DNA of 64,000 bases from Myxococcales bacterium (lineage in GTDB: Bacteria; Myxococcota_A; Polyangia; Polyangiales; Polyangiaceae): contig JAAZAA010000254.1 of the NCBI GenBank assembly GCA_012514535.1, positions 1 to 64,000 on the forward strand, read 5' to 3'. Below the pieces are notes generated by a model. It did not search any database, had not been told where the DNA came from, and saw only the letters and a program-made list of their open reading frames with translations. The translations under genes were made by a program, and so were the position numbers. Of this stretch, positions 3,374 to 21,367 are shown one piece after another (position 1 is the first letter of the stretch; every line of letters starts with the position of its first letter).

Positions 3374-4996
3374 ATGATTCAGCTCGACTCCGTCTCGAAG
3401 CGACACGGCAGCCAGATCCTGTTCATCGACGCGAGCTTCGCGGTGTTCCGCGGCGAGCGCGTCGGCCTGGTGGGGCCGAACGGCGCGGGCAAGTCCACCA
3501 TCTTCCGGCTCCTCGTGGGGCAGGAACAGCCCGACGCCGGGCAGGTGGCGATCGAGAAGAACACGGCGATCGGCTACTTCGATCAGAACGTCGGCGAGAT
3601 GAGCGGGCGCAGCACCCTGGAGGAGACCATGGCGGGCGCCGGCGAGGTGTCCACCCTGCGCGCGGAGCTCCTCCGCCTCGAGGCGGCCATGGCGGATCCG
3701 GAGCAGTTCGACGAGCTCGACGAGCTCGTCGAGCGCTTCGGCACCGTGCAAGCGCGCTTCGACGAGCTCGACGGCTACGCCCTCGAGGCGCGCGCCCAGG
3801 AGGTCCTCGCGGGGCTCGGCTTCAGCGAGGCGATGGTGGCGGGGGACGTGGGTCAACTGTCGGGCGGCTGGAAGATGCGCGTCGCCCTGGCCCGCGTGCT
3901 GCTGATGAAGCCCGACGTGCTCCTCCTCGACGAGCCGACGAACCACCTCGACATCGAGTCGATCATCTGGCTCGAGGGCTTCCTGAAGAACTTCGCCGGT
4001 GCCCTCGTCCTCACCTCTCACGATCGGGCGTTCCTGAACCGCGTCGTCACGCGGATCGTCGACATCGACGCCGGTGACCTCGTCAGCTACTCCGGGGACT
4101 ACGACTTCTATCAGCAGCAGTGGCAGCTCCGCCGCGAGCAGCAGGCGGCCCAGTTCGCCCGCCAGCAGGCGATGCTCGCCAAGGAGCAGGCCTTCATCGA
4201 TCGCTTCAAGGCCCGCGCGAGCCACGCGGCACAGGTCCAATCCCGAGTGAAGAAGCTCGAGAAGATCGAGAAGATCGATCCGCCGCGGGAGCGAAAGATC
4301 ATCGAGTTCGATTTCAGAGCGCCCCCGCGCTCGGGGGACGACGTCGCGACGGTCGAGGACGTGCACAAAGCCTACGGCGAGAAGGTCATCTACGACGGCC
4401 TGAACCTCTTGATCCGCCGCCAGGAGCGCTGGTGCGTGATGGGCGTGAACGGCGCCGGCAAGACGACCCTGCTCAAGCTGGTCGCGGGCGCCTCCCAGCC
4501 CGACCGCGGCAGCGTGCGCATCGGCGCCAGCGTGAAGCTGGGGTACTTCGCCCAGCACACCATGGAGCTCCTCGATCCCGAGCGCACCGTCCTCGAGACC
4601 CTGCAGCACGAGTATCCCCTCGCCGGCCTGGGCGTGCTCCGGACCCTGCTCGGCGCCTTCGGCTTCCCCGGCGACTCGGTGGAGAAGCGCTGCGCGGTCC
4701 TGTCCGGCGGCGAGAAGGCGCGGCTCGTGCTCGCCATCATGCTCTTCGATCCCCCGAACTTCCTCGTCCTCGACGAACCGACGAACCACCTCGACATCGA
4801 CACCAAGGAGATGCTCGTACGAGCGCTCCACAAGTTCGAGGGGACCTTGCTGTTCGTCTCCCATGACCGCACGTTCTTGAGCGCCCTGTCCAACCGCGTG
4901 CTCGAGCTGACCGCCGCCGGGCCGCGCGTCTACGACGGCGGCTACGACGAGTACGTCGCCGCCAGCGGCCAGGAGGCTCCGGGCCTCCGCCACTGA
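3374..4996 (+). CDS. ABC-F family ATP-binding protein
   Basis: Two ABC cassettes (GPNGAGKST, LSGGWKMR, LLLDEPTNHLD; GVNGAGKTT, LSGGEKAR, LVLDEPTNHLD) with the ABC-F linker and no TM domain. Start placed at the internal ATG before IQLDSVSK. Confidence 0.93.
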   Translation: MIQLDSVSKRHGSQILFIDASFAVFRGERVGLVGPNGAGKSTIFRLLVGQEQPDAGQVAIEKNTAIGYFDQNVGEMSGRSTLEETMAGAGEVSTLRAELLRLEAAMADPEQFDELDELVERFGTVQARFDELDGYALEARAQEVLAGLGFSEAMVAGDVGQLSGGWKMRVALARVLLMKPDVLLLDEPTNHLDIESIIWLEGFLKNFAGALVLTSHDRAFLNRVVTRIVDIDAGDLVSYSGDYDFYQQQWQLRREQQAAQFARQQAMLAKEQAFIDRFKARASHAAQVQSRVKKLEKIEKIDPPRERKIIEFDFRAPPRSGDDVATVEDVHKAYGEKVIYDGLNLLIRRQERWCVMGVNGAGKTTLLKLVAGASQPDRGSVRIGASVKLGYFAQHTMELLDPERTVLETLQHEYPLAGLGVLRTLLGAFGFPGDSVEKRCAVLSGGEKARLVLAIMLFDPPNFLVLDEPTNHLDIDTKEMLVRALHKFEGTLLFVSHDRTFLSALSNRVLELTAAGPRVYDGGYDEYVAASGQEAPGLRH

Positions 4997-5035
4997 ACGG
5001 GCGACGCGCGCTCCCCTCATTCCCTCGAGCTCTGG

Positions 5036-5118
5036 CGTCCGCACCGCGCACCGCGCTCGGCCCACCGCGCACCGCGCACCGCGCTCGGCCCACCGCGCAC
5101 CGCGCTCGGCCCACCGCG
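5036..5118. repeat. Tandem repeat built from caccgcg / ctcggcc units
   Basis: Direct reading: ccgcaccgcgcaccgcgctcggcccaccgcgcaccgcgcaccgcgctcggcccaccgcgcaccgcgctcggccca. Confidence 0.85.
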
Positions 5119-5168
5119 CGTCCTGGCCCCCGCTTGCCTCACGAGCGCTTCGTTTCTAAATCTCGGAA

Positions 5169-6533
5169 ATGAGTGACGGAGCGGTACGCGACGACCCGGA
5201 GCGCTTCGACTTCACCGTCGAGACGTTGGGGGAGTGCACGGTGGACAGCCCCCTGCGCCGGCGTACCTTCATCGGGCCCGACGAGCGCGTGATCGTCCCC
5301 TCGGATCTGGCGACCGTCGAGCACTGCGTCCAGAACGGCCTCCCGATCCCGACGATGGAGCGCGCCGGACCCCGGGAGAAGATCTTCCACCCGCCGTTCA
5401 TGACCCGCGCGGCGATCGTCACCTGCGGCGGGCTCTGCCCGGGGCTGAACTCCGTGATCAAGGGCCTCGTCGAGACGCTGTACCAGGAGTACGGGGTCAC
5501 GGAGGTCTACGGCATCCCCTACGGGTACCGCGGGCTCGACGCCGCGAACGGGCACCGCCCCGTGGTGCTGGGACCCGACGTGGTCGACACCATCCACCTC
5601 CAGGGCGGCTCGATCCTCGGCTCCTCCCGGGGCGCCCAGGATCCGGACCGGATGGTGCAGACCCTGGTCAATCTACGCTGCAACGTGCTCTTCACCGTGG
5701 GCGGTGACGGCACCCTCCGCGGCGCCGCGAAGATCGTCGAGGCCATCAAGCGCCGGCGCCTGGCCATCTCGGTCGTGGGCATCCCCAAGACGATCGACAA
5801 CGACATTCATTTCGTCGGCAGCACCTTCGGCTTCGAGACGGCCGTCTATCACAGCACGCCCGTCATCACCTCGGCGCACGTCGAGGCGAAGAGCGTCCCG
5901 CGGGGGATCGGCCTCGTGCAGCTCATGGGGCGCGACTCCGGGTTCATCGCCGCCTACGCGTCGTTGGCCAACCCGGTGGTGAACATCTGCCTGATCCCCG
6001 AGGTGGAGCTGTGCCTGGAGGGGGAGCACGGCTTGCTCCGGGCCCTCGAGCGGCGCTTCGAGAAGAAGAACCACGCGCTCATCGTCGTCGCCGAGGGCGC
6101 GGGGCAGCACCTCTTCGCCGATCAGCCCCCCCGCTACGACGCCTCGGGCAACCTCCTGAAGCACGACATCGGTCCCTACCTGAACCAGCGCATCACCGAG
6201 CACTTCCGCGAGCTGGGGCAGCCGGTCTCGATGAAGTACTTCGATCCGAGCTACCTCATCCGGAGCGTGCCCGCCTCGGGCACCGATCAGATCCTGTGTC
6301 ATCGCCTGGCGGAGGCCGCCGTCCACGCGGCCATGGCGGGCCGGACCAACGTCGTCGTGGGCTCCTGGAACCGCCATTTCGTCAACGTGCCCATCTCCGT
6401 GGCGACCTACGAGCGCCAGAAGGTGGACGTCCAGGGGGCCCTGTGGCGCTCGGTGCTCGCCAGCACCCGCCAGGAGAAATGGTTCGGGGTCGAGGACCAC
6501 GACGCGCCCCAGGGCATGCCCGCCCCCTGCTGA
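5169..6533 (+). CDS. ATP-dependent 6-phosphofructokinase
   Basis: CGGLCPGLNSVIKGLV, TVGGDGTLRGA, GIPKTIDNDIHF, LMGRDSGFIA. GGDGT suggests ATP dependence; PKTIDND is typical of the PPi/plant-type clade. Confidence 0.88.
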   Translation: MSDGAVRDDPERFDFTVETLGECTVDSPLRRRTFIGPDERVIVPSDLATVEHCVQNGLPIPTMERAGPREKIFHPPFMTRAAIVTCGGLCPGLNSVIKGLVETLYQEYGVTEVYGIPYGYRGLDAANGHRPVVLGPDVVDTIHLQGGSILGSSRGAQDPDRMVQTLVNLRCNVLFTVGGDGTLRGAAKIVEAIKRRRLAISVVGIPKTIDNDIHFVGSTFGFETAVYHSTPVITSAHVEAKSVPRGIGLVQLMGRDSGFIAAYASLANPVVNICLIPEVELCLEGEHGLLRALERRFEKKNHALIVVAEGAGQHLFADQPPRYDASGNLLKHDIGPYLNQRITEHFRELGQPVSMKYFDPSYLIRSVPASGTDQILCHRLAEAAVHAAMAGRTNVVVGSWNRHFVNVPISVATYERQKVDVQGALWRSVLASTRQEKWFGVEDHDAPQGMPAPC

Positions 6534-6588
6534 TACTGCTGACCGTCCGCTCTTGCCGCCCGCGGGCCGCGCTGACACAAACCGGGTC

Positions 6589-7206
6589 ATGAGCGAGCCG
6601 TCGCACTTCCGCCTCTGCACGACCTGCAAGACGCCCATCCCCTTCTCGGCGAAGTACTATGCGTGCAGCGTCTCGACCTGCAACCGCAGGGCGACGGCGA
6701 TGTATTTCTGCTCGGTGCCCTGCTGGGACGCCCACGTCCCGGAGGCACGCCACCGCGACGCCTGGGCGGAGGTCGAGACCGCGCCGAGCCGCGAGGAGTG
6801 GCTCCGGGAACGGGCGAAGAGCGCCGAGTCGGCGTCGTCCCCCGAGCGCACGCCTTCCCCGCGGAGCGCCGAAGCGCCTCGCGGCGGTGAGCCGGTCCGC
6901 CGCATCGTGTCGGGACACCAGCCGAGCGCCCCGCGCGCTGGTCTCGCTCAGGGGAGCGCGGGGGATGAGGACGCCGACGACGCGGCGCTGCCCCGCGACG
7001 TGCTCGTGGTCGTCTCCAAGCTCAAGGCCTACGTGCGCGCGCGGAGCTCCATGAACACCTCCGACGGCGTCGTCGAGGTGCTCTCGGATCACCTGCGCAC
7101 CCTCTGCAAGGCGGCGATCCGCAGCGCCGCCGCGAACTCCCGCAAGACGGTGCTCGCCCGCGACTTCGAGGCGGTCCTGCAGGGGCGCGCCGCCGCGGAC
7201 GAGTGA
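6589..7206 (+). CDS. Cys-rich zinc-finger-like plus histone-fold domain protein
   Basis: N-terminal CTTC...C....C...CSVPCWDAH...H pattern. C-terminal DVLVVVSKLKAYVRARSSMNTSDGVVEVLSDHLRTLCKAAIRSAAANSRKTVLARDFEAVL resembles a histone fold (archaeal GRKTIKAEDIELAV). Confidence 0.75.
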   Translation: MSEPSHFRLCTTCKTPIPFSAKYYACSVSTCNRRATAMYFCSVPCWDAHVPEARHRDAWAEVETAPSREEWLRERAKSAESASSPERTPSPRSAEAPRGGEPVRRIVSGHQPSAPRAGLAQGSAGDEDADDAALPRDVLVVVSKLKAYVRARSSMNTSDGVVEVLSDHLRTLCKAAIRSAAANSRKTVLARDFEAVLQGRAAADE

Positions 7207-7290
7207 GCCCTTTGTCGCCGCAGGCCACGCGGGGCTCCCTGGGCCCCTGAAGCGGCGGAGCTCTCGAAGGAGGGCTCCTCGAGGCCCCCT

Positions 7291-7341
7291 GTGGACCCGG
7301 GCCGTCAGTGGACCCGGGCCGTCAGTGGACCCGCTGCCCGG
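7291..7341. repeat. 17-bp tandem repeat (gtggacccgggccgtca), ~2.6 copies, overlapping the metG stop codon
   Basis: Direct reading of gtggacccgggccgtca gtggacccgggccgtca gtggacccgctgcccggg. Confidence 0.9.
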
Positions 7342-9385
7342 GCCGCGCGCCGCTGTCCGGCGACAGCACGAACAGATCGCTGCCGCCGGAGCCCGCGGCG
7401 ACCACCATGCCCTCGCTCAGCCCGAACTTCATCTGCCGGGGCGCGAGGTTGGCGACGATCACCACGAGCCGTCCCTCGAGCTGCGCTGGCTCATAGGCGG
7501 CCTTGATCCCGGCGAAGATCGTCCGACGCTCCTCGCCGCCGAGGCTCACGGTCAGCTTGAGGAGCTTGCGCGCCTCCTTGACCTCCTCGGCGCGGACGAC
7601 GCGGGCGACACGCAGATCGACCTTGGCGAAGTCGTCGATGGTGCACTCCGGCGCGAGCGGCTCCGCCCGCAACGCCTCGTCCGAATCCTCGACCGGCTCG
7701 CCCTGCCCACTCCGCTCCTGAACTTCACTCGACGCGTCCACGCTTGCCTCCACCATCTGGGCCACCTTCTTCGGATCCACGCGCTGCATCAGGTGCTTGA
7801 ACTCACCGAGCGTCGCGCCGACGAGCGGCTCTGCCGCGAGCTCCCAACGGTCGCAGGGCGCCCCGAGCAGCGCCGCGCTGTCGGCGGCCAGCTGCGGCAG
7901 CACCGGCGCCAGGTACACGACGATCTGTCGGTACAGGTTCAGAGCCACCGTGCACACGTCGACGAGCTCCTGCTGGCGCTCCGGATCCTTGCGGAGCTTC
8001 CAGGGCTCCTTCCGATCCAGGTACTCGTTCGCCCGATCCGCCAGGCCCATGACGAGGCGCATCGCCCGGGAGAACTCCCGCTCCTCGTAGGCGGCCGCGA
8101 TGTCCTCCCCGGCCCGGCGCGCCTGCTCGAACAGGCCCTCGTCCTCGGGGTAGCGGCTCGCCAGCTGCGTCACGAAGCGCGCCGTGCGGCTCGCCAGGTT
8201 CACCACCTTGCCGATGAGATCCGCGTTCACCTTCGCGACGAACTCGTCGACGTTGAGGTCGATGTCGTCCACCCGCGAGGTGAGCTTGCTCGCGTAGTAG
8301 TAACGGAGATACGCCGGGTCCAGGTGCTCGAGGTAGGTCGAAGCGCGGATGAAGGTGCCCTTCGACTTGGACATCTTCTCGCCGTTGACCGTGAGGAACC
8401 CGTGCACCTGGACGCGCGTCGGCAGCGAGTACCCCGCGCTCTTCAGCATCGCCGGCCAGAACAGCGTGTGGAAGTAGGTGATGTCCTTGCCGATGAAGTG
8501 ATGGATCTCCGTCTCGTCCGAGCGCCACCAGTCGTCGAAGCGCTCCCCGTGCCGCTTGCACCACTGCTCCGTGGACGCCATGTAGCCGATGGGGGCGTCG
8601 AACCAGACGTACCAGTAGTGCCCGGGCGCGTCCGGGATCTCGAAGCCGAAGTAGGGCGCGGGCCGTGACACGTCCCAGTCCCGCAGGGGCTCGGCCAGGA
8701 AGTGCCCCTTGAGGTAGTTGGCGACCTCCGGCTGCAGGTGGTCTCCCCCCTGGGTCCAGGCCTCGAGGAAGTCGTGGAGCTGCTCGATCTGCACGAAGAA
8801 GTGCGGCGCGGAGCGGACCTCCGGGCGCGCGCCCGTCAGGGCGCTGTAGGGCTCCACCAGATCCGTCGCGGCGTAGGCGGCTCCGCACTTCTCGCAGGAG
8901 TCTCCGTACTGGTCCTTCGCGGAGCACTTCGGACAGGTGCCCTTCACGAAGCGATCCGCCAGGAACACCCCGGCGTCGGGATCGTACAGCTGGGTGACCT
9001 CGCGCTCCACCACCAGCCCTCCGCGCCGCAGGGCGGCCCAGATCTCCGCGCAGCGCGCGCGGTTCTCCTCGGAGTTGGTGCTCCCGTAGTTGTCGAACTC
9101 GATCTGGAACCGGGCGAAGTCGCGCTCGTGCGCGGCCTGCATGTCGGCGATGAGCTCCGTCTCGGGGCGCCCCTCCTGGCGTGCCCGGATCATGATGCTG
9201 GTGCCGTGCGTGTCGTCGGCGCAGACGTAGACGCAGCGATGCCCCCGGGACTTCTGGAAGCGGACCCAGATGTCCGTCTGGAGGTACTCCACCAGGTGTC
9301 CGATGTGGATGTGCCCGTTCGCGTAGGGCAGCGCGCTCGTCACGAGCAGGCGGCGGCGCGTCGGGGAGGTCGCGGGTGCAGACAT
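7322..9385 (-). CDS. metG: Methionyl-tRNA synthetase
   Basis: [20 protein letters not shown] (HIGH), [10 protein letters not shown] (KMSKS), zinc knuckle [18 protein letters not shown]-terminal tRNA-binding domain. Confidence 0.97.
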
Positions 9386-10673: not shown

Positions 10674-12401
10674 ATGTCTCGTGAACCGCACATCCCTCTG
10701 TTCCTTTGGATCGCGACGGCAATCGTAGCCCACGCGATCTGGGGTGGAGGTGCGCACCAGGTCTCCAAGGCCCTCGAGGAGACCCTCGACATCGGCGCCT
10801 TCGCCCGAGAGGTGCAGCGGCACGTCCGCCTCCATTCCGTTCCCGTCGAAGTGTCTCTCCTGGACGAACAGGACGCCCCCTCCCTCGAGGTGCCCTCGCA
10901 GGTCGATCCGGCGCAGGAGAGCACCGAGGAAGCGGATCCCCAGGAGTCCACCGAGGTGGATCCCGAAGAGGAGCGGGTGGAGGAGAAGAAGCGCGAAGAG
11001 GAAAAAAAGAAGGAGAAGGAGCCAGAGCGTCCCCAGGCGCCCGAGCCCGAGCCGGACCCCGAACCCACGCCGGAGCAGGACCAGCCCCAGTTGGTGGTCC
11101 CACCCGAGGCGCTCAACCGCGTCGCGGTCGAGCAGCACGTGGAAGACAAGGATCAAGAGGACAACCCGGACGCCGCCCACATCGCCGAGCACGCCAACCG
11201 CGTGGAGCAGGAGACGCGGGCGCGGATCACCTCCACGGATCAGAACGAACCGGAGCCGAGCCCCGGTGAGCGCCACGCGGGCTCCGACCCGGAGCCGGGC
11301 AACTCGGAGGAGTCTCGGGTGGCCCAGTCCGACGACGCGGAGGGCGACCCGGACAGGCCTCCCGGCGACACCGCGGGGGAGCGCCCGCTCCCGCCCGTCG
11401 CCTCCCAGCCCGCCCCGCGGGAAGCCAGCGCTCAGGCGCCCGGTACGAACGCCCCCGCTCCCGCCCCTGCGCCTGCACCGACCCCACCCAGCGTCGCGCA
11501 GTCGCAGCAGGACGAGTCACCCGAGGTGCACGAGCTCGGCTCGGGTCGCTGGTCCTTGGCGCGCCCCCTCGAAGGGCGCGACGCGCAGAAGGCGGTCCCC
11601 CCGCGGCGTCCGCAGAAGCCGACGGATCTGCTGGGGCTCGGCGCGACGGGCACCACCCGCAACGGCGTGAACCTGAACCTCTCACCCCAGATGGCCGTCG
11701 CGGCGGTCGGCGCGGACCAGCTGGCCCGAGAGCGTCGCCTCGACGGTGAGCGCCGTAAGAGCGCCCATCGTGGCTCCTGGCAGTCCCTCGGACTCGAGCG
11801 CTGGAAGCCCGCCCTCGAGAACTACGTCGCGAGCGTGCAGGTGGGCAACCAGACGGCGCTGAACACCGCGCGGGTGCCCTTCGCGCGCTATCTCAACGCG
11901 ATCCACCTGCGCATCCACCCGGTCTTCGCAGACCGCTTCCTCGCGAGTCTCCAGTCCCTGCCCAAGGATCACCCGCTGAACCGCGAAGACATGAGCACGC
12001 ACCTCGAGATCGTGCTGAGCAAGGAGGACGGGCGCATCGTGCGTATGGGCATCACCAAGTCGAGCGGCGTGACCGCCTTCGACGTGGGCGCCCTGGACTC
12101 GGTGCAGAAGGCCTCGCCCTTCGGGGCGCCCCCCGACGTCATCGTCTCTCCTGACGGCAACGTCTATCTCCACTGGGAGTTCCATCGCCTGCCCCACTAC
12201 GCCTGCTCCACCTACTTCGCCAGACCCTACATCCTGAAGAGCGCACCGGAGACGGCTCCGCCGCGGCAGGGGCCCCCGCGGATGCCACCTCCACGGGGCG
12301 AACAGCCCTACGATCCGAGTCGTGCGGCTCCAGCCAGCCCAGGACAGCGCAGTGGCTTCCTCCACCGAGACCGGCGTGAAGCTTCTCAGCCCCGTGGTTG
12401 A
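10674..12401 (+). CDS. TonB-family protein with long charged/proline-rich linker
   Basis: N-terminal TM, E/K/P-rich linker, C-terminal TonB-like domain (LEIVLSKEDGRIVRMGITKSSGVTAFDVGALDSVQKASPFGAPP). Confidence 0.75.
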   Translation: MSREPHIPLFLWIATAIVAHAIWGGGAHQVSKALEETLDIGAFAREVQRHVRLHSVPVEVSLLDEQDAPSLEVPSQVDPAQESTEEADPQESTEVDPEEERVEEKKREEEKKKEKEPERPQAPEPEPDPEPTPEQDQPQLVVPPEALNRVAVEQHVEDKDQEDNPDAAHIAEHANRVEQETRARITSTDQNEPEPSPGERHAGSDPEPGNSEESRVAQSDDAEGDPDRPPGDTAGERPLPPVASQPAPREASAQAPGTNAPAPAPAPAPTPPSVAQSQQDESPEVHELGSGRWSLARPLEGRDAQKAVPPRRPQKPTDLLGLGATGTTRNGVNLNLSPQMAVAAVGADQLARERRLDGERRKSAHRGSWQSLGLERWKPALENYVASVQVGNQTALNTARVPFARYLNAIHLRIHPVFADRFLASLQSLPKDHPLNREDMSTHLEIVLSKEDGRIVRMGITKSSGVTAFDVGALDSVQKASPFGAPPDVIVSPDGNVYLHWEFHRLPHYACSTYFARPYILKSAPETAPPRQGPPRMPPPRGEQPYDPSRAAPASPGQRSGFLHRDRREASQPRG

Positions 12402-13563
12402 GACCCACTCCAACCGCTGGGACGCGGGCTCGGTGTTCAGGCCCGTGCTCGCGTGGGGGATCCTGGGGTTCGTCACCTTCGTGGTGGAGGTGCTCTTGCT
12501 GAGCGGGCTGCGGGGGAGCGCGAGCGGCATCTCCGCGCTCATCGACTCGCTCACGGTCCTGGGCGCGGTGCTCACTCAGCTCCTGTTCGTGAGCGGCGTC
12601 ATCCTGGTCGTGCATTTGGAGCTGCTCCTGATCCGCTCGACGGCGCCCTGGCCCTTGCGCGCGTTGAGCGTCCCGGTGACGTCGGTGCTCTGCACCCTCT
12701 TGATGAACGCCGCCGTCGGCGAACTCGCGGTACTCCCCCTGCTGCTCCTCGGCATCCTGGCGACGGGGCTCGCGCTGGCGACGGGGATCGCGCGCGGCCT
12801 CGCGCGAAACGACCTCGCGCGCAACGACTCGCAGGGCGACCCAGCGCCGGGCATCGCCTCACAGGGTGCTCCGGCCCAGGGTGTTCGAGCACAGGGTGTT
12901 CGAGCACAGGGTGTTCGAGCACAGGGTGCTCCGGCCCAGGGTGCTCCGGCCCAGGGTTTTCGAGCACAGGGTGTTCGGGCGCAGGGTGCCTCCTCCCGGC
13001 ACCTCGGTCTCTTCTTGATCCTCACCTCCCTGGCGGCGCTCCTGTGGGCTGCCGCCCGGGTCTCCGCGTGGCAGGCGACCACCCTCGAGCCCCCTCCCTT
13101 CGACTCCTGGGCCCCCTGGTTGGCCACCTCCGCCTGGGCGGTGAGCGCCGGCTTGACGACGTGGGCCTTCGTCCTCCTGGTGCGCGCCCCGCGGACCGCC
13201 GGCTCCCGCCCGCCGATCACGCCCGTCCTGGTGGGGCTGCTCGCCACCGCGGCGGGCTGGCTCGTCACCCGTCCGCGAACCTTCGACGAGCCGATCTGGC
13301 TGGTCTTCCTGGCTCGCGCCACGCAAGGCCTGCTGCGCACGCCGCTCCCCGTCGTGCCCCCCTTCTTCGTCGCCGTGGAGCATCTGCTCGGCCTCACCGT
13401 CGCCGCCTGGGCCTTCGCTCACCGAAGCCTCCCTCCCAGCCACAGGATCGCCGTCGGCTTCTGCCTCCTGGCGCTGCGCGCCCCCGACACCCCCTTGCTC
13501 GCCCTCGTGCTCACGGTCGGAGCCCTCTGGGTCGCGATCCCCTCCGCGCCGAAGCACGCCTGA
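12394..13563 (+). CDS. Polytopic membrane protein with internal pentapeptide (AQGVR/AQGAP) repeat loop (start uncertain; ORF open from 12322)
   Basis: Several hydrophobic helices. In-frame GTG at 12394 overlaps the upstream gene's stop. Confidence 0.65.
   Translation: MVETHSNRWDAGSVFRPVLAWGILGFVTFVVEVLLLSGLRGSASGISALIDSLTVLGAVLTQLLFVSGVILVVHLELLLIRSTAPWPLRALSVPVTSVLCTLLMNAAVGELAVLPLLLLGILATGLALATGIARGLARNDLARNDSQGDPAPGIASQGAPAQGVRAQGVRAQGVRAQGAPAQGAPAQGFRAQGVRAQGASSRHLGLFLILTSLAALLWAAARVSAWQATTLEPPPFDSWAPWLATSAWAVSAGLTTWAFVLLVRAPRTAGSRPPITPVLVGLLATAAGWLVTRPRTFDEPIWLVFLARATQGLLRTPLPVVPPFFVAVEHLLGLTVAAWAFAHRSLPPSHRIAVGFCLLALRAPDTPLLALVLTVGALWVAIPSAPKHA
12862..12990. repeat. 15-bp tandem repeat (gttcgagcacagggt / gctccggcccagggt), ~8-9 units, coding
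   Basis: Direct reading; encodes (AQG[VAF][RP])n. Confidence 0.92.
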
Positions 13564-13625: not shown

Positions 13626-13688
13626 CCCGCTCGCGGCAACGCCCGCTCGCGGCAACGCCCGCTCGCGGTAACGCCCGCTCACGCCCGC
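13626..13688. repeat. 16-bp tandem repeat (cccgctcgcggcaacg), ~3.6 copies, intergenic
   Basis: Direct reading of consecutive copies. Confidence 0.9.
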
Positions 13689-13796: not shown

Positions 13797-14303
13797 GTGC
13801 CTCCCATCAGCGCGGACAGCGCCCCGTCCATGACCCTCGAGCTCAGCTTCTTCCCCTCGGAGCAGCTGGTCCCCGCGATCTCCAAGCTCGTCGCGGATTT
13901 CTGCAACCTGGTCTTCTCGGACCCGAACGTGACGATGCGCTACCACATGGCCGCACAGGAGCTCGCGGAGAACGTCGTCAAGTACGGCGACGGGCCCGTG
14001 GTGAGCCTCGGCGTGCAGTTCCGTCACGAGGGGGACGGGTACCTGATGCGGCTGCAGGCGACGAACACCGCGTCTCCGGAGAAGCTGGCGGAAGTCCGGC
14101 GTCACGTGGAGGCCCTGAAGACGGCGCCGGATCCGGAGGCCCTCTACGACGACCTGATCCAGGCGGGAGCGGGCCTCGAGGGCACCTCCGGGCTCGGCCT
14201 CGCACGCATCCGGGCGGAGGGGAGGCTCCTCCTCGACTACGCCATCGACGGCGACGAGCTCACCATCACCGCCGAGGCCAGCTCACGGGGGGACACACCA
14301 TGA
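13797..14303 (+). CDS. slr1658-like regulator (HATPase-like, possible anti-sigma/switch kinase)
   Basis: MRYHMAAQELAENVVKYGDGPVVSL (N-box-like) and GTSGLGLARIRAEG (G-box-like). First gene of a cassette with a STAS-like protein and a SpoIIE phosphatase. Confidence 0.65.
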   Translation: MPPISADSAPSMTLELSFFPSEQLVPAISKLVADFCNLVFSDPNVTMRYHMAAQELAENVVKYGDGPVVSLGVQFRHEGDGYLMRLQATNTASPEKLAEVRRHVEALKTAPDPEALYDDLIQAGAGLEGTSGLGLARIRAEGRLLLDYAIDGDELTITAEASSRGDTP

Positions 14304-14674
14304 CCCTCGCCGTCCGGGAGGTCGTCACCCCCACCTTCACCTTCGTGCCGAAACTGCAGGGCACGGACCTCTGCTGCGCCCTCACGGGGACCGCCGATCT
14401 GGTCGCCGTCGAGCCGCTCCAGGACTTCTTGAAGGAGCTGCGGGAAGACGTCGCGCGCCTCCGTCCGCCGCGCGTCGAGGTCGACGTGCGCGCGCTCCTC
14501 TTCATCAACTCGAGCTGCTTGAAGGCGTTCGTCAACTTGGTGTTCTTCCTGCGTGAGGCCGAACACACACCGCTCCTCGAGTTCGTCACGGACGGGAAGC
14601 TGACGTGGCAAGAGCGCGCCCTGGCTCCGCTCCGGAGGATGTCCCCCTCGACGGTCTCCATCAGGATCCTCTGA
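14300..14674 (+). CDS. slr1659-like / STAS-like anti-sigma-factor antagonist protein
   Basis: Small alpha/beta protein with VDVRALLFINSSCLKAFVNLVFFLR (STAS-like). 4-nt overlap with the upstream gene. Confidence 0.65.
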   Translation: MTLAVREVVTPTFTFVPKLQGTDLCCALTGTADLVAVEPLQDFLKELREDVARLRPPRVEVDVRALLFINSSCLKAFVNLVFFLREAEHTPLLEFVTDGKLTWQERALAPLRRMSPSTVSIRIL

Positions 14675-14684
14675 TCATCACCCG

Positions 14685-17147
14685 ATGACGAAACCACGCC
14701 GAACGATCGCGGTCCTGGCGGACACTCTCGCGGGGGAGTACCAGACGGACGTCCGCTCGGCGATCGAGCGGGCCGCGGCGGAGCGCGACACCAACCTCCT
14801 GTTCGTCACCGGACAGCAGATCGCGACGCTCGGCAGCGACTCTCTCGCCAACACGATCTACGAGCTCGTCACACCGCGCAGCTGTGACGGGATCATCGCC
14901 CTCTCCGGGACCTTCGGACACCGCGCCGGCGTGGACGGCACCCTCCGGTTCTTGAAGGCCTACGCGCCTCTGCCCGCCTGCAGCATCGGCATCGCGCTGC
15001 CCGGGATCGCCAGCGTCATCGTGGACAACGCCGGCGGCATGGCCCTCGCCGTCGAGCACCTCATCGTCGACCACCGGCGACGCAGGTTCGCTTACATCGC
15101 CGGCCCCGCGAGCAACGACGAGGCTCGGCTGCGTCTCGAAGCCGCTCGGCAGAAGCTGGAGCTCCACGGCCTCCACCTCGATCCGGCCCTGCTCGTCCAC
15201 GGCGATTTCACGACCGCCGGGGGCGCCGAGGCGATGCGGCAGCTCCTCGCCAAGGGCGTGCCCTTCGACGCCGTCGTGGGCGCCAACGACAACATGGCCC
15301 TCGGGGCCATGCAGGTGCTGCAGCAGCAGGGCATCTCCGTACCCGGTGAGGTCGTGGTGACCGGCTTCGACGACGTCACGGTGGCGCGCTTCGGGAGCCC
15401 ATCCTTGACCACGGTGCGCCAACCCCTACGCCGCCTCGCGGCTGCCGCCGTGGAGTCCGTGCTCGATGCCATCGACGGGAAGCCGACCTTCGCCTCGACG
15501 ATCGTGCCCGTCGAGTTCGTGCGCCGGGAGTCCTGTGGCTGCGGGTACCAGCTCGTCAACACCTGGATCCCGCCGCGGCCGGCGGAGGTGGGCTCGCTGC
15601 CGCCCCCTGCGGAGCGGCAGGCAGAGCTGGCGGCCAAGCTGCGCGAGACCGTCACCTTGTCCTCGGACACCGCTGGCGACTGGCCGGAGCGGCTCCTCGG
15701 GGCGCTGAACCGCGAGCTCCGGGGAGAGGCCGGCGTGTTCCTGAGCGCCCTCGACGACTTGCTCGAGGAGGCCGCCCAGGAGGGGATCGCGATCGACGAG
15801 TTCCAACGGGCGATCACGCTCTTGCGCAGGGAGGGGAACCGCGCCCGCTCCGAAGATCCGGCGCGCCGGGCCGCGCAAGAGCGGCTCTGGCACGCGGCCC
15901 GGATGCGTATCGGTGATGCGTCCGTGAGAACGCAAGGCAAACGCCGCCTCGAGGTCGAGCTGTCCGCCGTACGCCTCGCGCACTCCGGCGAGAGGTTCGC
16001 GACCGCCTTGAGCCTGCCCTTGCTCGAGCGCGCCATCGTCGGCGCCTTGCCGGAGATGGGGATCCCGCACGCGGCCGTCTTCCTCTGCTCCGACACCCAG
16101 CGACGCCTGCGCCCCTTCGTCCTGTTGCGGGACGGAGAGCCGATCCCCGTCGATGGGGAGCCCTTCGACGCCACCGAGCTGCGCCCCGCCGATCTCTTCG
16201 GCGATCGTCGCTTCAGCCTGTACGTGATGCCGCTGACCTTCGAGGCACGCCTCCTGGGCGTCTCGATGATGGCCGCCGGCGCGAACGAGACCATCTACGA
16301 GACCCTGCGGCATCAAATCGGCTCTGCCCTGACCACCGCCTCGATGCATCGCCAGGTCGTGGAGCAGATCGCCGCCCGAGAGCGGGTCGAGAAGGAGAGC
16401 GCGGCCAAGGAGACGCGCATGGCCGCCGCGATCCAGACGTCGATCGTCCCCCAGAGCTTCGCCGTCGACGGCCTCGACATCGCCGCGCGGATGCTCCCCG
16501 CGGCGGACGCCGGGGGCGACTACTACGACGTCGTCGCCACGGAGGAGGGAGCCTGGCTCGCGGTGGGGGACGTCAGCGGCCATGGTCTCGCCGCAGGCCT
16601 GATCATGCTCATGCTCCAGAGCATGATGGCGGTCCTCCTCCGCCGGGAGAGCTGCCGCAGCCCCGCCGAGGTGGTCACGGACGTCAACCGCGCCCTCTTC
16701 CACAACCTTCGGGATCGGCTCGGACGCGATGATCACGCGACCCTGGTCGTCCTCCTCTATCGACGTGACGGTCACGTCGTCTTCGCTGGCGCTCACGAGG
16801 AGCTCCTCGTCGTCCGCCATCGGACGGGCCAGGTGGAGTGCATCTCGACCACGGGCGTCTGGGTCGGCGCGATGCAGGACGTCCGGGCCGTGACCCACGA
16901 CGCCCACTTCCTCCTGGAGGACGGTGATCTTCTGGTCCTGTTCACCGATGGCGTCGTGGAGGCCCGCAACGCCCAGGGGGCGCAGTTCGGCATCGAGCGG
17001 CTGTGCGCGACGCTGCAGGCGCACCGCGCCGCGCCCGTGGAGGAGCTCTGCGACGCGGTGCTGCGCCAGGTGCGCGCCTGGACCCCCACCCTCGACGACG
17101 ACGTGACCCTGCTGGCGCTGCGCTACCAGGCGCCGCGCGGCGGCTAG
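14685..17147 (+). CDS. Soluble LacI-type ligand-binding domain, GAF-like middle region, and C-terminal PP2C/SpoIIE phosphatase
   Basis: N-terminal PBP1 fold without HTH (TIAVLADTLAGEYQTDVRSAIE, DAVVGANDNMALGAMQVLQQQGISVPGEVVVTGFDD). RRESCGCGY after the PBP domain. SpoIIE motifs AGGDYYDVV, VGDVSGHGLAAGL, LVLFTDGVVEARN. Confidence 0.88.
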   Translation: MTKPRRTIAVLADTLAGEYQTDVRSAIERAAAERDTNLLFVTGQQIATLGSDSLANTIYELVTPRSCDGIIALSGTFGHRAGVDGTLRFLKAYAPLPACSIGIALPGIASVIVDNAGGMALAVEHLIVDHRRRRFAYIAGPASNDEARLRLEAARQKLELHGLHLDPALLVHGDFTTAGGAEAMRQLLAKGVPFDAVVGANDNMALGAMQVLQQQGISVPGEVVVTGFDDVTVARFGSPSLTTVRQPLRRLAAAAVESVLDAIDGKPTFASTIVPVEFVRRESCGCGYQLVNTWIPPRPAEVGSLPPPAERQAELAAKLRETVTLSSDTAGDWPERLLGALNRELRGEAGVFLSALDDLLEEAAQEGIAIDEFQRAITLLRREGNRARSEDPARRAAQERLWHAARMRIGDASVRTQGKRRLEVELSAVRLAHSGERFATALSLPLLERAIVGALPEMGIPHAAVFLCSDTQRRLRPFVLLRDGEPIPVDGEPFDATELRPADLFGDRRFSLYVMPLTFEARLLGVSMMAAGANETIYETLRHQIGSALTTASMHRQVVEQIAARERVEKESAAKETRMAAAIQTSIVPQSFAVDGLDIAARMLPAADAGGDYYDVVATEEGAWLAVGDVSGHGLAAGLIMLMLQSMMAVLLRRESCRSPAEVVTDVNRALFHNLRDRLGRDDHATLVVLLYRRDGHVVFAGAHEELLVVRHRTGQVECISTTGVWVGAMQDVRAVTHDAHFLLEDGDLLVLFTDGVVEARNAQGAQFGIERLCATLQAHRAAPVEELCDAVLRQVRAWTPTLDDDVTLLALRYQAPRGG

Positions 17148-19507: not shown

Positions 19508-21367
19508 ATGGAGATGAGCGAACTGGACGGGCGTCGTGAGCCCACCTCCAGCAAGCTCGAACAAGGCGGCGTCAGGAGTTCCCTGTCGCGGTCGCGGCCC
19601 GAAGACGACTCGAACAACGGCGAAACGACCATGGTAGAGCTCGCGCCCCAACGGGGTAGCTCGCGCAGCAAGCGCGGCGAAGATCCAGCCCTCGGCAAAG
19701 TCATCGCGGGGCGCTATCGCCTGGAGGCTCGCATCGGCGAGGGCGGCATGGGCATCGTGTACCGCGCTCGGCACGTGCTGATCGATCGAGTGGTCGCGGT
19801 GAAGCTCATTCGGCCGGATCTGCGCGGCGAGACGCACCTGCGCGCCTGGATGTTGCGGGAGGCGCGCGCCGCGAACCGCGTCGATCACGCGCACATCATC
19901 GACATCCACGACATCGGGGAGACCGACGACGGCGAGCTGTACCTGGTCATGGAGTACCTGATCGGCACGCCACTCTCCACGGAGCTCGCCCGTGGGCCGA
20001 TGCCCCTGCAGCGCGCGGTCGACATCATCGAACAGATGGGCGCCGCCCTCTGCCGCGCCCACGACCTCGGGGTCGTCCACCGGGACCTCAAGAGCGATAA
20101 CATCCTGCTCACCGCCCGAGGCGGCCGCCAGGATTTCGTGAAGATCCTCGACTTCGGCCTCGCGGCCCTCGCCCACGATCCGCGGCTCGCGCCCAAGGGC
20201 GCGGTCTTCGGAACGCCGGAGTACATGTCCCCCGAGCAGGCGCGCGGCGAACAGGCGGGGCCCCAGTCGGACCTGTACGCCCTCGGCGTGCTGTTCTTCG
20301 AGATGATGACCGGGCAGCTGCCCTTCCGCGCCAGCGACCGCGACACGCTCCTCGAGATGCAGCGCACGGGGCGCGCCCCCCTGCCCTCCTCCGTCCGCCG
20401 CGACTGCCACCCGGAGGCGGAGAAGATCGTGATGCGCTTGCTGGAGAAGGATCAGCGCAAGCGCTACAGGGACGGGCACCATCTGCTCGAGGAGCTCAAG
20501 AAGCTCCAGCGCTCGCTGCCCAGCCACACCACCTGGGACGCCAAGAAGGCGGCGGACGGTACGACGGCCACCCCGCCCGTCCCGCCGCCGCCCCGCTCCC
20601 CGAGTGTGATGGAGTGGGCGAGCCGCGCGGGGCTCTTCTCCCGCATGGTCGCGCGCGCGTTCCCCGCCGGGAACGCGCCCGCCGACGTCTCCCAGGCCCT
20701 CGCCACCCTCTGGGACGTGGCAGCGAAGGCCAACCATCTCGAAGGCGAGGTGGCGAGCCACACGCGCAAGCTCGAAGCTCTGGAGCGACGCGGTCGCGCC
20801 CTGCGCGCCGAGATCGGCCGCAAGGTGGAGGAGCTGGCCCAGGAGGAGTCGCGCGCCCTGCGGGAAGCCGCGGCCTACTCGGAGGAGGAAGGTCAGGCGC
20901 GCCGAGAGCTGGCCCAGGCGCAGGCCGCTGCTCGCGAGCACGTAGCCGCCGCGGACCACGCGGAGAAGCTCGGGCAAGGGACGCGCACCCTCTTCGAGCG
21001 GGCGGGGGCGGCTCGCGCGCTGGTCGACGCCAAGGCGGCGTGGCTCGCGACCCGCGAACGGCGCCGCAAGGCCCGTGAGTCGGTGGCCGCAGATCTGCGC
21101 GCCCAGATCGAGGAGCTACGCGGTCAGCTGTCGCGCTACGCGGACGCCGTCGAAGAGGATCTCGCCGCGGGTCGAGAGAAGATCGCGGCGCGGACGCGGG
21201 ACGGCCTCGCTTACGAGAAGCAGTTCGTCGACGCGTGCAACGTCCTCGTGAGCCACCTCAAAGGCAAACCCGAGGTGCGCGACCTGATGAACGAGCTGAG
21301 GGCGAGCACCGAGCAGGCGCCGCAGTCGGGCGCCGCGAAGGTCGAGCCAGCCCGCGCGGCCAGCTGA
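19508..21367 (+). CDS. Serine/threonine protein kinase (Hanks type) with C-terminal coiled coil
   Basis: IGEGGMGIVYRARHVLIDRVVAVKLI, VVHRDLKSDNILL, KILDFGLA, GTPEYMSPEQARGE. No clear TM in the C-terminal part. Confidence 0.93.
   Translation: MEMSELDGRREPTSSKLEQGGVRSSLSRSRPEDDSNNGETTMVELAPQRGSSRSKRGEDPALGKVIAGRYRLEARIGEGGMGIVYRARHVLIDRVVAVKLIRPDLRGETHLRAWMLREARAANRVDHAHIIDIHDIGETDDGELYLVMEYLIGTPLSTELARGPMPLQRAVDIIEQMGAALCRAHDLGVVHRDLKSDNILLTARGGRQDFVKILDFGLAALAHDPRLAPKGAVFGTPEYMSPEQARGEQAGPQSDLYALGVLFFEMMTGQLPFRASDRDTLLEMQRTGRAPLPSSVRRDCHPEAEKIVMRLLEKDQRKRYRDGHHLLEELKKLQRSLPSHTTWDAKKAADGTTATPPVPPPPRSPSVMEWASRAGLFSRMVARAFPAGNAPADVSQALATLWDVAAKANHLEGEVASHTRKLEALERRGRALRAEIGRKVEELAQEESRALREAAAYSEEEGQARRELAQAQAAAREHVAAADHAEKLGQGTRTLFERAGAARALVDAKAAWLATRERRRKARESVAADLRAQIEELRGQLSRYADAVEEDLAAGREKIAARTRDGLAYEKQFVDACNVLVSHLKGKPEVRDLMNELRASTEQAPQSGAAKVEPARAAS

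Follow-up and report, generated by a model that had tools for sequence, protein, structure and literature searches.

We find that three adjoining genes of a myxobacterial contig probably constitute a complete kinase/switch/phosphatase partner-switching cassette, the input of which would be a cytoplasmic LacI-type domain carried by the phosphatase itself. The genes lie in a window of 64,000 nucleotides, the whole stretch of DNA analyzed (positions 1 to 64,000 of contig JAAZAA010000254.1), and their open reading frames were recovered where the first-pass annotation had placed them, including the 4-nt overlap at 14300-14303 between the stop of the HATPase gene and the start of the STAS gene. A gap of 10 nt separates the STAS gene from the phosphatase gene, and coding bias is strong in all three frames (GC3 0.91-0.92 versus GC2 0.42-0.48).

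Table 1. Genes of the cassette and predicted parts of the phosphatase protein, in window coordinates.
Feature	Position	Strand	Evidence
slr1658-like GHKL ATPase, 168 aa; proposed Ser kinase of the STAS protein	13797..14303	+	NCBIfam, alignment, model, fold search
slr1659-like STAS protein, 124 aa; proposed phospho-switch	14300..14674	+	NCBIfam, profile alignment
PBP1 / R-x-S-C-G-C / helical / GAF-like / SpoIIE phosphatase, 820 aa, soluble	14685..17147	+	Pfam, model, hydropathy
PBP1 (LacI-type) ligand-binding core, residues ~6-284	14700..15536	+	Pfam, LacI alignment, fold search
R-E-S-C-G-C motif, residues 281-286	15525..15542	+	Comparison of 16 sensor proteins and LacI
Helical bundle 308-386, long helix 392-441, alpha/beta GAF-like segment 444-530, long linker helix 535-586 (predicted)	15606..16442	+	Model, pLDDT about 60-89
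SpoIIE/PP2C catalytic domain, residues ~597-814	16473..17126	+	Pfam, invariant Asp residues

The catalytic end of the 820-residue protein matches Pfam SpoIIE with an E-value of 2e-41 at residues 621-814 and retains a full set of metal-site aspartates (D612, D615, D629, D755, D805 and D806, all invariant), which bears out the earlier description of a complete SpoIIE phosphatase domain; the same domain also matches the SiaA model NF038263 (E 1e-13). Its opposite end matches Peripla_BP_3 (E 1e-30, residues 124-284) and Peripla_BP_1 (E 4e-15). As previously noted for the HTH and transmembrane segments, neither of these nor a signal segment was found by domain search and hydropathy. The highest hydropathy peak (2.07, at residue 634) lies within a helix of the catalytic core, ruling out a transmembrane phosphatase. 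In an AlphaFold2 model the PBP1 core is followed by a disordered joint at 287-307, then by the helical bundle and long helix, the alpha/beta segment, the linker helix and finally the PP2C domain, an arrangement that is a prediction from a seven-sequence alignment with a mean pLDDT of 80 and a pTM of 0.54. The GAF-like region proposed in the first-pass annotation has its support in this model, which contains an alpha/beta segment at ~444-530; we tentatively regard this segment as a GAF-like element, but it has no Pfam GAF match.

Fold searches with the model returned LacI ancestors, CelR, RbsR, LacI, PurR and CcpA as the top matches, with E-values down to 4e-20 and ~35% identity of the PBP1 core to the LacI ancestors, so that the N-terminus is predicted to adopt the PBP1 fold expected of it. 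In an alignment with E. coli LacI, R150, N201 and D229 of the core correspond to R197, N246 and D274, which we take to be the ligand residues of the repressor; across 20 full-length relatives R150 is invariant and N201 and D229 are nearly so. D149 of LacI and its other sugar contacts are not kept, and a different set that is not LacI-like (Y19-Q20, N144 and E146) is conserved instead, with Y19-Q20 and E146, both in the cleft, invariant or nearly invariant over the same relatives. It is reasonable to suppose that a cytoplasmic small ligand gates the phosphatase, since R150, N201 and D229 are retained and the protein is soluble. Judged from these residues the ligand is probably a small polar molecule; with D149 lost and a different set conserved in its place, the sequence does not reveal the class of the ligand, "sugar or nucleoside" included. 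Residues 280-288 form the RRESCGCGY motif reported previously. All 16 sensor proteins that were compared have R-x-S-C-G-C or a near variant of it after the core, 15 with SCGC and one with SCNC; both C-x-C cysteines are kept in every case regardless of output, and LacI has no such motif.

The two small proteins had been described as slr1658-like and slr1659-like. The likeness stands, as the ATPase matches NCBIfam NF047703 (slr1658; E 5e-9, 35.9 bits) and the STAS protein NF047705 (slr1659; E 2e-9, 38.0 bits), but family membership does not, both scores falling far short of the 100-bit NCBIfam cut-off for these superfamilies. Pfam adds weak matches to HATPase_c_2 (E 0.028) and STAS_2 (E 0.009), respectively; the SiaC-family model does not match the STAS protein, for which STAS_2, slr1659 and one weak general anti-anti-sigma match were all that was obtained. 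The alignment of a STAS-protein profile to SpoIIAA (E 0.004-0.006) runs across the phospho-site and sets NSSC, invariant in all 11 aligned relatives, against the DSSG of SpoIIAA. Within the motif LLFINSSCLK, Ser71 occupies the position of SpoIIAA Ser58 and SiaC Thr68. We predict Ser71 to be the phospho-acceptor because Ser58 is presumably the first Ser of the SpoIIAA DSS and because SiaC T68 takes the same position; the phosphorylatable Ser/Thr on which the earlier proposal depended is thus present. The equivalent SiaC phosphopeptide, LLYLNTSSIK, receives its phosphate at T68 from SiaB and loses it through SiaA (PMC7647112), and N67, T68 and S69 of SiaC contact SiaD (PMC8457831). LLFINSSCLK resembles this peptide, including at Asn and Lys positions that are absent from SpoIIAA.

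The ATPase carries the N-box Asn59 and a GLGL lid motif, with the G1-box Asp replaced by Asn90, which is invariant across the aligned relatives. Because the canonical Asp is absent, activity of the predicted kinase is not assured. Its AlphaFold model (pLDDT 86) has the SpoIIAB-SpoIIAA and SiaB-SiaC complexes as its top PDB matches in a fold search, which was the sole informative comparison, since a profile search of PDB sequences gave no usable match (best E 0.046). SiaB, matched as structure 6kko, is a precedent for the modeled ATPase at the level of fold only: the window protein has no match to DUF6272 (PF19788) up to E 10, which rules it out as a DUF6272/SiaB family member. Weak DUF6272 matches occur in seven of 13 relatives (best 3.5e-4); a PF19788 search of the window's own genome returned no match, but its controls returned none either, which makes it uninformative. 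A search of the literature for slr1658/slr1659 or DUF6272 turned up no functional studies. Taken together, the STAS protein and the kinase resemble SiaC/SiaB as much as SpoIIAA/SpoIIAB.

Conservation of the cassette, as the first-pass annotation had anticipated, is evident in Sorangium, where the same gene order recurs and where relatives of the phosphatase are collinear over residues 1-819 at 45-50% identity. Three complete Sorangium genomes encode 17 full-length PBP1-SpoIIE proteins (5, 8 and 4), together with 12 close STAS genes and 10 close kinase genes, and this excess of phosphatases suggests that switch proteins may be shared by several sensors. Each of the 12 STAS genes sits directly upstream of a PBP1-SpoIIE gene, at a spacing of ~30 nt or less in 11 and ~270 nt in one, and a kinase gene also stands in front in eight of these cassettes. 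Tandem arrays are present in So ce26 and So0157-2 (three cassettes each; L162 and L163) and in So ceGT47 (two; L164). The three genes are not a strictly obligate unit, because some cassettes are without a kinase gene (it is a remnant in the last cassette of So ce26, L162c, and was not found in front of L163c, L168 and L169) and one, L009, is without a STAS gene. Divergence of the STAS proteins and of the phosphatases is correlated across cassettes (Spearman 0.59, with 4 of 2000 permutations as high), as expected of units duplicated together. Mean within-genome identity in Sorangium is 74-79% for the catalytic domains, 62-66% for PBP1 and 53-54% for the helical part, the most variable segment of the protein. 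The window's own genome contains a second kinase/STAS pair with no phosphatase nearby (C42; L058) and a second PBP1-SpoIIE gene near a contig end (C407; L047).

In Myxococcota the kinase/STAS core is also combined with other sensors. A close STAS relative was found in 14 of 379 Myxococcota genomes, and most of these loci have a SpoIIE gene close by, the sensor of which differs: TM-HAMP (L084, L085, L087, L113 and L114), 4HB-MCP-HAMP (L107), NIT-HAMP (L108), dCache-HAMP (L111), GAF (L105), PAS (L106) or Hanks kinase-AAA-GAF (L112). In a quick tree of the catalytic domains, a clade of 28 (SH-aLRT 86) holds the PBP1 phosphatases together with those of the TM-HAMP (L084-type and L087) and 4HB-HAMP types, separate from the remaining SpoIIE domains; the tree has long branches and inner forks that are partly unresolved. 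Conversely, fusions of the PBP1-RxSCGC-helical-GAF-like module to histidine kinases (L083, L082, L012 and L013) and to GGDEF (L086) occur across Myxococcota, Chloroflexota and Fibrobacterota. The modularity runs both ways, the core taking other sensors and the sensor taking other outputs. The authors of work on RsbU have proposed that N-terminal domains are exchanged among phosphatases, kinases and cyclases (PMC12143880), in a text that makes no mention of periplasmic-binding, LacI or sugar-binding domains. As a tentative extension, which we would not yet call probable, RxSCGC-tailed LacI-type receptors could be general plug-in sensors that in Sorangium and its relatives were duplicated into arrays of metabolite-gated partner switches, several ligand-gated phosphatases converging on fewer STAS proteins and kinases.

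We infer the following biochemical scheme. The slr1658-like ATPase would phosphorylate Ser71 of the STAS protein and so hold it inactive; binding or release of a ligand in the PBP1 cleft would be relayed along the helical and GAF-like segments and the linker helix and, whichever the sign of the regulation, would change the activity of a SpoIIE dimer; the phosphatase would remove the Ser71 phosphate; and the unphosphorylated STAS protein would bind a target encoded elsewhere, the candidates being an enzyme, for instance a cyclase, and a partner of the sigma or anti-sigma class. For the path by which the sensor would act on the phosphatase our analogy is RsbU, in which a coiled-coil linker dimerizes and activates the phosphatase (PMC12143880). 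That the target is not encoded beside the cassette, as claimed previously, agrees with the absence of a sigma factor from the cassette and with a scan of 62 neighbors of 22 related loci, which yielded no consistent partner; sigma-70 domains occurred in three of the 62, one of them an ECF-like sigma factor in L106.

The sensor, the ATPase and the output each admit another reading. The PBP1 domain might instead be a dimerization or protein-binding module, the signal entering through the GAF-like segment or through the CGC cysteines as a redox or metal site. Retention of the C-x-C cysteines in all 16 sensor proteins, whatever the output, would fit such a role, as would the loss of LacI D149 and the other sugar contacts, but we consider it unlikely: a pure scaffold has no need of a conserved cleft, and it is the helical segment that varies most, while R150, N201, D229, Y19-Q20 and E146 scarcely change among the 20 full-length relatives. 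For the ATPase, the alternative is a pseudokinase that sequesters the STAS protein and leaves its phosphorylation to another enzyme, for example a Hanks-type Ser/Thr kinase. The Asn that replaces the G1-box Asp throughout speaks for this, as do a Hanks-type kinase in the window (19508-21367), the locus L104, where a Hanks-type kinase gene precedes the STAS gene and a HATPase gene was not found, and the great abundance of Hanks-type kinases described for S. cellulosum (PMC2887360). We nevertheless judge a pseudokinase improbable, given that Asn59, the GLGL lid and the overall fold match active SpoIIAB and SiaB and that a kinase-substrate pair fits the conserved gene pairing and the 4-nt overlap.

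With regard to output, an enzyme target of the SiaC kind has to be taken seriously beside a sigma factor: the unphosphorylated STAS protein would activate an enzyme, such as a diguanylate cyclase, as SiaC does. This variant of our preferred scheme differs from it only in the target and, although possible, falls short of being the expected outcome. It is favored by the SiaC-like acceptor motif, with the Asn and Lys positions that SpoIIAA lacks, and by the inconsistency of sigma-factor neighbors (3 of 62); against it, no GGDEF gene was identified adjoining the cassettes, and likeness over ten residues is a weak guide, SpoIIAA showing similar identity in that stretch. There is, finally, next to no likelihood that three unrelated signaling genes are adjacent by chance. 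The small number of Myxococcota genomes with a close STAS relative and the separation of the second kinase/STAS pair from the second PBP1-SpoIIE gene in the window's own genome might be read in that way, but the recurrence of the order in Sorangium, the tandem arrays and the correlated divergence argue against it; repeated chance adjacency is implausible because there are only six SpoIIE matches in the 5.8 Mb of the window's own genome, and the synteny in Sorangium and other Myxococcota refutes it.

The preferred reading, a ligand-gated partner switch, can be set against several known systems. The phosphatases of well-studied partner switches often detect stress by way of a membrane domain or a partner protein, and in many cases their primary signal is not known. 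With a LacI-type cleft, a soluble phosphatase offers a direct chemical handle for ligand screening, the same switch can be compared across relatives with HAMP, PAS or GAF sensors, and the cassette provides a natural test of the proposed exchange of N-terminal sensors among phosphatases, kinases and cyclases. Among named families the slr1658/slr1659 superfamilies are the best-matching, the window pair being divergent relatives. SiaABC(D) of Pseudomonas aeruginosa likewise combines a small GHKL kinase and a PP2C phosphatase with a STAS-like phosphoprotein, the acceptor motif of which is similar. In contrast, the window kinase has no DUF6272 match, its STAS protein has no SiaC-family match, there is no siaD neighbor, and the phosphatase bears a soluble PBP1 sensor, a type not known for SiaA. 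The SpoIIE/SpoIIAB/SpoIIAA and RsbU/RsbW/RsbV switches share with the cassette the three protein classes, their folds, the position of the acceptor Ser and the PP2C catalytic residues, whereas the cassette is without a sigma factor and has an altered G1 box and a PBP1 input. LacI/GalR repressors share the ligand-binding core and ligand residues, whereas the window protein lacks an HTH (its core begins at about residue 6) and has a phosphatase output and an RxSCGC tail. Closest are the Sorangium relatives, which have the same domain pair; the PBP1-SpoIIE architecture is therefore not new, as such fusions (PBD-SpoIIE) and their expansion in S. cellulosum were described in 2010, in a paper the consulted passages of which do not describe adjoining kinase/STAS genes, tandem cassettes or the RxSCGC motif (PMC2887360). 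Relative to the literature searched, what appears to be new in these sequence comparisons is the linked kinase/STAS cassette with its tandem arrays, the RxSCGC sensor family with its three kinds of output, and the swapping of sensors on a single kinase/STAS core.

The three-gene order is broken in Sorangium So ceGT47, where one locus retains the kinase and phosphatase genes and the STAS gene between them is cleanly absent; two further STAS copies are retained in this genome, both within its tandem array. A close kinase relative in Sorangium So0157-2 is an orphan, with no STAS match nearby. At L104, a locus of genome G364, the gene in front of the slr1659-like STAS gene encodes a Hanks-type Ser/Thr kinase. 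No HATPase gene was found near this STAS gene, and the Hanks-type enzyme may have replaced the HATPase here.

Coordinates of features in the window and at related loci
Sequence	Positions	Feature
Window	12322-13563	ORF
Window	12860-12988	15-bp repeat, 8.6 copies, within the ORF
Window	13626-13680	3.4 tandem copies of a 16-bp unit, a short way upstream of the cassette
Window	19508-21367	Hanks-type Ser/Thr kinase, coiled-coil-like tail, ~2.4 kb downstream of cassette
L009 (So ceGT47)	5900-6010	STAS gene absent
G379:C1 (So0157-2)	8035216-8035710	Orphan kinase relative
L104 (G364)	6784-9106	Hanks-type kinase and STAS genes
L105 (G347)	5952-8640	Cassette with second HATPase
L048 (own genome, C19)	4949-6775	PBP1-RxSCGC protein, 608 aa

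In the window, the ORF ahead of the cassette encodes a low-complexity pentapeptide array. Elsewhere in the host genome, the protein encoded at L048 possesses the helical and GAF-like region and lacks a recognised output domain. The second small HATPase at L105 (133 aa) adjoins the phosphatase, with genes for a response regulator, CheB and a CheA-like Hpt-HATPase in the vicinity.

The phosphatases of L084, L085, L087, L110, L113, L114 and L115 are HAMP-type or otherwise membrane-bound, and adjoining them are a plastocyanin-like gene and a beta-barrel or cytochrome c554-like gene; Pfam analysis of these neighbours covered just two of the loci, L085 and L115. The arrangement hints that this membrane-phosphatase branch responds to an envelope or redox signal.
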